The notes beneath the pieces are model-generated. The model searched no databases. It had not been told where the DNA came from and worked only from the letters and a program-made list of their open reading frames with translations. A stretch of DNA of 60,241 bases from Terrisporobacter mayombei (GTDB lineage Bacteria > Bacillota > Clostridia > Peptostreptococcales > Peptostreptococcaceae), in assembly GCF_014333445.1 (NCBI RefSeq), contig NZ_JACRYU010000011.1, positions 1 to 60,241 of the forward strand, written 5' to 3'. Within the stretch, counting starts at the first letter, position 1. Each line of letters begins with the position of its first letter. Shown here in pieces: positions 253 to 2,892 of the stretch. Made by a program: the position numbers and the translations under genes.

Positions 253-1248
253 CTAATAATAGATTCCTTCTTCAAAGTAATCTTTAATTTCATCAAGATT
301 ATTAGATTTGCCTAATGCTAACATTAATTTAATTCTTGATTTATGACCGTTTAAATCGCCGGCAAAAATACAACCAAGATTTTTTAAATCTCTACCAGAG
401 CCTAGATATCCATAAGAATCATAAACTCTTCCTAGTAAACATCTAGAAGTTATTACAACAACAACTCCTTTTTCTCTAGCATATTTAACTCCTTCATACA
501 TTTGTGGAGGTATATTTCCACGACCCATTGCTTCTATTACAATACCCTTATAGCCCATATCTACAGCATGATTTATAAAAGTATAATCCATTCCTAATCC
601 TGATTTAAATAATGCAACTTTACTTACAACTTTATCAGTATCTATGAACGTTCTGCGTGCAACATTTTTGAATAATAAAAGCTGATTACTATCTACTATG
701 CCCAAAGACCCTTTACCTGGAGATTGGAAAGTATTTAGAGACATTGTATCTGTTTTTGTAGCTTCTGAAGCTAATAAAACTTCATTGTTTAAAACAACAA
801 GAACACCTTTATTTCTAGCGTTTTCTGATATAGCTACACAGACAGAAGAGGCTAAATTATTTGAACCATCATAACCAAGTTCCGAACTACTTCTCATAGC
901 ACCTGTTACTATAACTGGTTTTTCATGATTTATAACTAAATCTAAGAAGTAAGCACTTTCTTCTAAACTATCTGTACCATGAGTTATTACAACTCCAGAG
1001 ATATCTTCTCTATCTAATAATTCAAGGACACAATTTTTTAACTGCATAAGTTTTTGTGGTGTCATATGCGGTCCTGGTATTTCATCAAAGTCTATAACTT
1101 CAAAATCTGCAACTGTACTAATACCTGCTGCCATAGACATAATTTGTTGACCAGATAAAGATGGTACATTAGCTCCAATTTCATCATCTATTGTCATTGA
1201 AATAGTTCCGCCAGTAAATATAATAGCTACTTTTTTTCTTGTAGACAT
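253..1248 (-). CDS. ansA: L-asparaginase
   Basis: Hydrolyses L-asparagine to aspartate and ammonia. The 331-residue protein has the family's two active-site blocks: TGGTIS at 12-17 with nucleophile Thr15, and THGTDS at 89-94 with Thr92 and Asp93. Lys165 (in ATKTDT) completes the expected Thr-Thr-Asp-Lys set. No signal peptide is visible, so it should be cytoplasmic (the type I-like compact form). The start is fixed by TAAGGAGG 8 nt upstream. It is a single gene, divergent from the cysteine desulfurase at 1741. Confidence 0.93.
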   Translation of the reverse strand: MSTRKKVAIIFTGGTISMTIDDEIGANVPSLSGQQIMSMAAGISTVADFEVIDFDEIPGPHMTPQKLMQLKNCVLELLDREDISGVVITHGTDSLEESAYFLDLVINHEKPVIVTGAMRSSSELGYDGSNNLASSVCVAISENARNKGVLVVLNNEVLLASEATKTDTMSLNTFQSPGKGSLGIVDSNQLLLFKNVARRTFIDTDKVVSKVALFKSGLGMDYTFINHAVDMGYKGIVIEAMGRGNIPPQMYEGVKYAREKGVVVVITSRCLLGRVYDSYGYLGSGRDLKNLGCIFAGDLNGHKSRIKLMLALGKSNNLDEIKDYFEEGIYY

Positions 1249-1359
1249 AATATTGCCTCCTTATATTTAAATACTATATATAATTATACCAAAATATTAA
1301 AAAAAAAGAGTGTTATGTGATAAATAATTTTTAGAATATTTTACTTTAAATTTGAACAT

Positions 1360-1488
1360 AAAAAAAGAGCCGGGGAAGCTCTTTTTCTGATAAATTAAAT
1401 CTAATTCGTCTTAGACATAATATATATCTATTCATAAAAAGGGGTATTTGAATAGAAACTTTAATTGGGTTATCAAGGGGATAACTAC
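1360..1488 (-). ncRNA. Candidate small RNA with C-rich hairpin loops
   Basis: On the minus strand a promoter reads TTGCAT (1523-1518), 17-nt spacer, TATTAT (1500-1495), giving a predicted start near 1488. The transcript would fold into four hairpins: 1485-1469 (6-bp stem, loop CCCTT), 1456-1427 (8-bp stem TCTATTCA/TGAATAGA, loop containing CCCC), 1415-1400 (5-bp stem), and a terminator at 1386-1362 (9-bp stem, loop TTCCCCG) followed by seven U. No open reading frame is present. C-rich loops of this kind in Gram-positive small RNAs pair with the purine-rich Shine-Dalgarno of target mRNAs. The class is inferred; I do not recognise a named family. Confidence 0.6.
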
Positions 1489-1634
1489 TATTATATAATA
1501 ACAATATTCGACAATAAATGCAATAAAAAATTAAAATTTAATTATATAAAATAATATTTCTACAAAAATAAATTAATATGAATAGTATGCTTTTATAAAA
1601 CTTTAAGTATAACATTAAAAAAAACGTATAAAAA

Positions 1635-1740: not shown

Positions 1741-2892
1741 ATGGAAATTTATTTAGATAATAGTGCAACTACAAAGCCTTATGAAGAAGTAGTGGAAGAA
1801 ATGGTTAAAGCACTTACTACAGAATATGGAAATCCATCTTCTCTACATAAAAAAGGAATAGAAGTTGATAGAAAAATCAAAGAAGTAAGACAAAATATAG
1901 CTAGAACTTTAGGTGCAAAAGATAGAGAAATATTCTTTACATCTGGAGGAACAGAATCTAACAATACAATAATTAGAGGAGTTGCTTATAATTTTAGAAA
2001 AACTAAAAATCATATAATATCAACTAATATAGAGCATCCTTCTGTCTTAAATACACTTTATGATTTAGAAAAAGAAGGATTTGAAATAACATTATTAGAA
2101 GTTGATGAAAGTGGAAAAATAAGTATAGAGGATTTAAAGAAAGCAATTAAGCCAGCTACTATACTAATTTCTACAATGCATGTTAATAATGAACTAGGAA
2201 GTATACAACCAATAGAAGAGATAGGAAAATATCTAAAAACGCTAGATCAAAAAATATATTTCCATGTGGATGCAGTTCAATCTTACACAAAAATTAAATT
2301 TAGACCAACAAGATATAATATTGATTTCATGACTGTGAGTGGGCATAAATTCCATGGTCCAAAAGGTATAGGATTTATGTATATTAAAGAAAATAGTAAG
2401 ATAAAACCTATATTAACTGGTGGAGGACAAGAAGTCGGAGTAAGATCTGGAACAGAAAATGTACCAGGTATATATGGATTAGGAAAAGCAGTTGAGATAA
2501 TGAACAAAGATTTAGATAAAAAGATTGAAAAAATACAAATCTTAAAATCTTTATTAAAAGATGAAATATTAAAGAATATAGAGGGTGTAAAAATAAACTC
2601 TCCAGAAGATGGTGTATGTCATATACTAAATGTTTCTTTTGAAAATATAAGAGGAGAAGTTTTACTACATTTCTTAGAACAAAAAAATATATATGTATCT
2701 ACAGGATCTGCTTGCTCTTCTAAGAAAAAAGGCAGTCATGTACTAAATGCAATAAATCTTAAGCCAGATGAAATCGAGGGAGCAATAAGATTTAGTTTAT
2801 CTGATTTCAATACAGAAGAAGAGATTTTAGAAACTGTTAAAGTTTTAAAGGAATCTATAAATGATTTAAGAATGATAATAAAAAGACGATAA
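1741..2892 (+). CDS. Cysteine desulfurase (NifS/IscS family), ThiI partner
   Basis: PLP-dependent enzyme that takes sulfur from L-cysteine as a protein persulfide, releasing alanine. The 383-residue protein starts MEIYLDNSATT, carries the PLP lysine K203 in SGHKFHGPKG, and has the persulfide cysteine C325 in STGSACSS. thiI starts 13 nt after its stop. In Firmicutes this pairing supplies sulfur for 4-thiouridine in tRNA rather than bulk Fe-S assembly; that role is inferred from the neighbour. An extended -10 promoter lies about 100 nt upstream. Confidence 0.93.
   Translation: MEIYLDNSATTKPYEEVVEEMVKALTTEYGNPSSLHKKGIEVDRKIKEVRQNIARTLGAKDREIFFTSGGTESNNTIIRGVAYNFRKTKNHIISTNIEHPSVLNTLYDLEKEGFEITLLEVDESGKISIEDLKKAIKPATILISTMHVNNELGSIQPIEEIGKYLKTLDQKIYFHVDAVQSYTKIKFRPTRYNIDFMTVSGHKFHGPKGIGFMYIKENSKIKPILTGGGQEVGVRSGTENVPGIYGLGKAVEIMNKDLDKKIEKIQILKSLLKDEILKNIEGVKINSPEDGVCHILNVSFENIRGEVLLHFLEQKNIYVSTGSACSSKKKGSHVLNAINLKPDEIEGAIRFSLSDFNTEEEILETVKVLKESINDLRMIIKRR

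Follow-up and report, generated by a model that had tools for sequence, protein, structure and literature searches.

A conserved small RNA candidate with C-rich loops and a Spo0A-box-like promoter motif in Terrisporobacter and its relatives

The minus strand of the Terrisporobacter mayombei DNA analyzed here (60,241 nucleotides, referred to as the window) very likely carries, to judge from sequence comparison, a small RNA gene at positions 1488–1360 that is conserved throughout the order. The best reading of this RNA is that of a small RNA with C-rich seeds in the Spo0A regulon, which would work like RoxS/RsaE without being a member of that family. Spo0A is the master switch of sporulation, the promoters of the RNA often bear its candidate binding site, and C-rich patches in the RNA could cover ribosome-binding sites. 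We consider it fairly probable that the RNA acts in trans, combining an order-wide core with a promoter controlled by Spo0A and with C-runs that block G-run ribosome sites. First, comparison shows a stand-alone unit that has its own promoter and terminator and an order-wide core of hairpin 1 and a C-rich stretch. Second, Spo0A~P would control its transcription, with repression more likely than activation. Third, the C-runs would base-pair with ribosome-binding sites that contain G-runs, so that several mRNAs, spo0A perhaps among them, would not be translated. The order comprises gut and soil bacteria, and the RNA appears to have been kept nearly unchanged across it. Families of the order are denoted by codes (f1, f3, f10 etc.); f1 includes Terrisporobacter, and f10 is the best-sampled family.

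Structure and conservation of the RNA

On the minus strand, the −35 element TTGCAT (1523–1518) is separated by 17 nt from the −10 element TATTAT (1500–1495), and transcription is predicted to start at about 1488. Both elements can be read directly from the DNA; in relatives, the former aligns with TTGNNN and the latter is kept. From the predicted start to the end of a run of seven T (1366–1360), the RNA would measure about 129 nt, in agreement with the ~128 nt of the preliminary description. A consensus scan of the region listed neither the promoter nor the terminator of the RNA, and promoter-like sites were as frequent as in shuffled sequence (21 vs. 20.6). Since the motif scan listed neither, the case for the TTGCAT-17-TATTAT promoter and the seven-U terminator, both proposed earlier, rests on their conservation. 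The earlier statement that the RNA contains no open reading frame holds in part: a 52-aa frame with a TTG start (1346–1504, minus strand) spans the RNA, but its start lies upstream of the predicted transcription start.

The computed fold (−28.3 kcal/mol; z of −4.67; none of 200 shuffles as good) comprised four hairpins, as had been claimed. Hairpin 1 (1486–1468) exposes the loop CCCCTTG with the C-rich patch CCCCTT at 1480–1475. Hairpin 2 (1456–1427), with ACCCCTTTTT in its loop, contains the C-rich stretch CCCCTTTTT (1444–1436); it is predicted for Terrisporobacter, where UCUAUUCA pairs with UGAAUAGA, instead of the downstream stem preferred in other genera. Hairpin 3 (1425–1390) has no C-rich loop. 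The terminator hairpin (1388–1360, including the T-run) can be read directly as well as folded, presents TTCCCC (1377–1372) in its loop, and is kept in f1 copies. Thus, C-rich loops are found in three of the four hairpins, as in the preliminary description.

Across the order, the core consists of hairpin 1 (GGUUAUCCCCCUGRUAACC; AGUUAUCCCCUUGAUAACC in the window), followed by a stretch with CCCAAUACCCCUUUU (AAAUACCCCUUUUU in the window). The loop of hairpin 1 is CCCCCUG in most relatives and CCCCUUG in the window. The most conserved part of the RNA is the C-rich stretch CCCAATACCCCTTTT, the counterpart of CCCCTTTTT; it was identical in 81/81 f10 copies among the matches listed, with or without Spo0A. 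Hairpins 2 and 3 lie outside this deep core, and further stems vary by clade. Covariation cannot test hairpin 1 because it hardly varies, and RNAalifold on alignment A2 returned only hairpin 1 and the terminator, with no pairs changed on both sides. For the downstream stem of f1, four pairs were changed on both sides (mean of 1.2 in shuffles, 0/500), yet the pair types were no more numerous than after shuffling. The counterpart of hairpin 3 in other f1 genera covaried as well, both partners having changed in six of its 11 pairs; this count used 12 f1 copies other than Terrisporobacter, since the Terrisporobacter copies align badly there.

Among seven Terrisporobacter-type sequences, 127 of the 129 RNA positions were invariant, as compared to only 103/217 and 53/111 positions in the flanking spacers. 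Model R1, a covariance model of the core that scored 74.8 bits in the window, found the RNA in 61/71 genomes and 22/23 genera of the family. In 60 of these 71 genomes, the match had an E-value of 3e-8 or better, and one (G034) matched only at 0.04. The sole genus of the family without a copy in this search was g6 (0/9 genomes). These nine genomes were also without full-length Spo0A, the best matches being about 1e-22.

The order-wide covariance search detected the RNA in 271 of the 393 genomes, which represent 114 of the 158 genera. Its named carriers are Terrisporobacter, Clostridioides difficile, Metaclostridioides mangenotii, Peptacetobacter and Acetoanaerobium noterae. The preliminary description had suggested a covariance search as a check: the stems and C-rich loops proved to be kept in relatives, rather than lost beside conserved flanking genes. 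With model R2, 10/291 genomes of the class matched, eight of which belong to the order. Of the two outside it, G529 (L300), where the gene order is preserved and the promoter motif reads TGTCGG, gave a strong match of 78 bits, and G503 matched marginally. No copy was found in G455, a genome of the same family as G529. In the phylum sample, 1/199 genomes matched, namely the reference genome itself, and a pattern search of 21 genomes contributed nothing further. Phage sequences gave no match; among plasmid sequences, an Acetoanaerobium record the size of a chromosome matched, and weak matches to two Staphylococcus plasmids were judged to be noise. At the gathering threshold, no Rfam family matched the RNA in the window or in eight loci, and permissive thresholds yielded only scores far below the cut-offs of the respective families. 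Rfam 15 has no entry for the RNA, and Rfam-based annotation therefore overlooks it.

A candidate Spo0A box in the promoter

The heptamer TGTCGAA, which we take to be the Spo0A consensus, occurs on the minus strand at 1513–1507, between the −35 and −10 elements. The RNA of the window thus has a 0A box at its promoter, as would be expected of a member of the Spo0A regulon. According to the available sections of PMC11210211, Spo0A~P works via 0A boxes. The box had gone unnoticed in the preliminary description and is new in the present analysis.

Full-length Spo0A was scored with TIGR02875 in the same 393 genomes of the order, and 167 promoters, one per genome, were compared as a subset of the 271 carriers. 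Those from f10 were the best-scoring matches listed plus four loci, not all f10 copies. A box was called when TGTCGAA occurred with at most one mismatch in the 75 nt that precede hairpin 1. In the 167 promoters, with f10 represented by the matches listed, the box was present in 100/118 genomes with Spo0A and 7/49 genomes without it (Fisher p of 5e-18), and perfect boxes in 54/118 and 4/49, respectively. In comparison, 200 permuted motifs occurred on average in 10.9/118 and 6.0/49, and the best of them in 47/118 genomes with Spo0A. Collapsing the data to genus blocks preserved the difference (56/69 vs. 4/19; f10 among the matches listed), and none of 20,000 label shuffles between genus blocks reached it, either overall or within f10.

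Most of the Spo0A-negative promoters came from f10, where among the matches listed 33/40 genomes with and 2/41 genomes without Spo0A carried the box. Thus, the box of an RNA found order-wide is mostly missing in f10 where Spo0A is missing. Exclusion of seven Spo0A-negative f10 loci with altered hairpin 1 left 32/39 vs. 2/31 (among the matches listed). Outside f10, the contrast was not significant (67/78 vs. 5/8; p of 0.12), and therefore the overall association rests on f10. In f1, 45/47 genomes with Spo0A had the box. A smaller set lacking eight genomes, among them the boxed Spo0A-negative G075, G078 and G142, gave 98/116 vs. 4/43 (f10: matches listed); addition of the eight lowered the overall contrast and rendered that outside f10 non-significant. 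Within genera, the box followed Spo0A in g99 (5/5 vs. 1/12), g31 (1/1 vs. 0/1) and g48 (5/7 vs. 0/1), and two g12 genomes scored as Spo0A-negative retained it like their Spo0A-positive genus mates. Of the five boxed Spo0A-negative genomes outside f10, four have Spo0A-positive genus mates, and the absence of Spo0A from G054 (86% complete), G075, G078 (75% complete) and G142 may reflect gaps or recent losses. The fifth, G048, is rated 100% complete and has a perfect box without Spo0A.

As a check on the Spo0A-negative labels, the DNA-binding domain was searched for in 38 negative genomes of f10, in eight positives, and in 11 and six other genomes. Full-length Spo0A was found in 0/38 of the f10 negatives. 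Short or weak matches to a stand-alone Spo0A DNA-binding domain (PF08769) were observed in 12 of these 38, in G046 and in Peptacetobacter G079 and G080, and also as second copies in G220 and G241. The frames concerned were mostly about 127–177 aa long, too short to include a receiver domain. Such proteins may be orphan Spo0A-like regulators, and they could account for some boxes in Spo0A-negative genomes.

On balance, control by Spo0A is more probable than not in genomes that have Spo0A. Most boxes lie about 27 or 47–50 nt ahead of hairpin 1, and they can face either way. With two preferred positions around the core promoter and no fixed orientation, repression would fit better than activation. 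Sporulation cannot be the only role of the RNA because the RNA persists in many genomes without Spo0A.

The motif might instead serve a different regulator, lost together with Spo0A in f10, in which case the RNA would be an ordinary growth-phase or metabolic small RNA. The perfect box of G048 and the short stand-alone Spo0A_C-domain proteins of some Spo0A-negative genomes are in line with this, as is the finding that 8/11 box-failing promoters of Spo0A-positive genomes outside f10 keep the core TGTCG and vary in the last two bases. We nevertheless regard it as unlikely: the motif equals what we recall as the Spo0A consensus, permuted motifs performed much worse, and the contrasts within g99, g31 and g48 fit Spo0A.

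C-rich seeds and candidate targets

The RNA likely acts in trans through its C-rich seeds. The preliminary description had described the loops as anti-Shine-Dalgarno sequences and had named three ribosome sites as examples, all of which are present (SpoIIAB, AAAGGGGGAA; RuvB, AAAGGGGGAU; gene 25377, AAAGGGGAUU). The C-runs match G-run ribosome sites better than Shine-Dalgarno sequences at large, and such G-runs occur in a minority of genes: a run of at least four G at the ribosome site was found in 74/340 sampled genes of Terrisporobacter G005.

For spo0A, a G-run of at least five was present in 44 of the 48 leaders parsed. The ribosome sites of SpoIIAA and SpoIIAB (12134 and 12490 in the window) have five to six G, and thus sporulation genes beyond spo0A may share the G-run. 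In many f3 and f11 genomes, the spo0A ribosome site is UCAGGGGG, the complement of the hairpin-1 loop CCCCCUGA. This 8-mer occurred at the start of one of 361 sampled genes of G112, namely spo0A, and perfect matches of at least 8 nt to hairpin 1 were found for 10/361. When sampled genes were ordered by the energy of their duplex with hairpin 1, spo0A ranked 12 of 340 (G005), 4 of 361 (G112) and 17 of 344 (G230), i.e., in the top 5% in all three genomes and never first. With the anti-Shine-Dalgarno sequence of the ribosome, it ranked 201, 174 and 114, respectively. These ranks ignore accessibility and use gene starts from a simple script. Only G005 and G230 are independent tests, since leaders from the family of G112 inspired the idea. 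In Terrisporobacter, the longest perfect match between the spo0A leader and hairpin 1 is 5 nt, and 175/340 genes have an equal or longer one. The hairpin-1 ranks are suggestive only, and spo0A mRNA is a possible target. Since spo0A ranked high for hairpin 1 and average for the anti-Shine-Dalgarno sequence, acting as a general anti-Shine-Dalgarno RNA does not explain everything. Among the f10 matches listed, the hairpin-1 loop was intact in 39/40 genomes with Spo0A vs. 29/41 without it (p of 0.0015), and seven of the first nine f10 loop variants share one deletion.

It is conceivable, if rather unlikely as a whole, that these elements make up a double-negative switch of ancient origin. In it, Spo0A~P would shut the promoter of the RNA, the hairpin-1 loop CCCCCUGA would cover the G-run site of spo0A (UCAGGGGG in f3 and f11), and the second, invariant C-rich seed would act on other mRNAs, which would sustain the RNA after loss of Spo0A. 

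An RNA retained throughout an order, whose Spo0A box largely disappears together with Spo0A in f10, would add a conserved post-transcriptional layer to the decision to sporulate. C. difficile has no apparent phosphorelay, according to the available part of PMC10267692.

No convincing shared target emerged from scans with the C-rich stretch, and this, together with its invariance in all 81 f10 copies among the matches listed, which is stricter than in many base-pairing seeds, would suit a core whose partner is a protein or a second small RNA, as in a scaffold or sponge, without pairing to ribosome sites. Such a role appears even more doubtful than a different promoter regulator, since base pairing of C-runs to ribosome sites with G-runs is already known from RoxS (PMC5419742, sections available) and hairpin 1 ranks spo0A high, whereas the ribosomal anti-Shine-Dalgarno sequence does not.

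The preferred reading, base pairing by C-rich seeds, has counterparts among known small RNAs. LhrC-type small RNAs of Listeria are multicopy, with homologous copies and C-rich single-stranded parts. The new RNA shares homologous copies and C-rich single-stranded parts with them; compared by description, it differs in sequence, clade, promoter and its maximum of three copies per locus. RoxS, in the accessible text of PMC5419742, has several C-rich regions able to pair with G-rich targets and a promoter under the repressor Rex. Likewise, the window RNA has several C-rich regions, namely three patches, and repression by Spo0A is proposed here. Clade, gene context and promoter box differ from RoxS/RsaE, hairpin 1 and the C-rich core are the new RNA's own, and the RoxS/RsaE covariance model (RF01820) scored 14.5 bits in the window against a threshold of 79, with no match listed for L077.

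In C. difficile, SpoY and SpoX bind spo0A mRNA, and eight more small RNAs form chimeras with it; SpoY, which derives from a 5'UTR and is protected at nt 30–41, binds a G-rich motif resembling a ribosome site and prevents spo0A from being translated (PMC10267692, in the part available). Both act on spo0A mRNA, which for the new RNA is a candidate target only. Nucleotides 30–41 of the C. difficile copy of the new RNA are not C-rich; identity with SpoY is thus not supported when set against the partial description of SpoY available. The RNA could be among the eight others reported in that part of PMC10267692. Few C. difficile small RNAs had been found in other clostridia at the time of PMC3649979, in the sections available, and the available part of PMC11651100 contained nothing on this locus. 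No description of the RNA came up in the literature searches; catalogues of C. difficile small RNAs may list it as an uncharacterised transcript.

Gene context and tandem copies

In the window, the RNA lies upstream of an asparaginase-like gene on the same strand (253..1248, minus) and is flanked by a divergent gene for a NifS/IscS-type cysteine desulfurase (1741..2892, plus); both genes scored below curated cut-offs, with synteny as further evidence. In the first 20 loci, the NifS/IscS-type gene was present in 20/20 and the asparaginase-like gene downstream in 19/20, and each neighbor was found in 8/9 loci from f3, f7, f9 and f11 (L077–L083, L085, L086). Neither was found in the nine f8 and f10 loci (L071–L076, L084, L087, L088). 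No asparaginase-like gene was found to accompany the RNA at the loci of C. difficile, Metaclostridioides and Peptacetobacter, most of which have a convergent ABC ATPase gene downstream (named by inspection); the C. difficile copy sits between that gene and the pair iscS-thiI. Since the RNA is kept at loci without these genes, it is independent of them in cis.

In 8/20 loci, the RNA is followed or preceded in tandem by a second copy whose terminator differs, and the maximum per locus was three tandem copies (L037 in G075). Tandem copies and copies without the usual neighbors indicate a stand-alone trans-acting RNA. Together with the order-wide conservation, they bear out the earlier proposal of a separate small RNA gene in which C-rich patches recur. 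That the RNA is instead a cis-acting leader or attenuator of the asparaginase-like gene, the short RNA being the terminated product, is suggested by the same-strand gene in 19/20 first loci and 8/9 f3/f7/f9/f11 loci, but it is very improbable and was rejected, as the RNA does not always lie upstream of that gene, being kept without it in C. difficile, Metaclostridioides, Peptacetobacter and 9/9 f8/f10 loci, precedes convergent or other genes, and occurs in tandem.

The extra tandem copies of L037 and of other f1 loci end in the terminator CCTACTTC...GAAGTAGG, which has no C-rich loop. The asparaginase, IscS and ThiI proteins encoded in the window share 97% identity with those of a Terrisporobacter MAG (L105).
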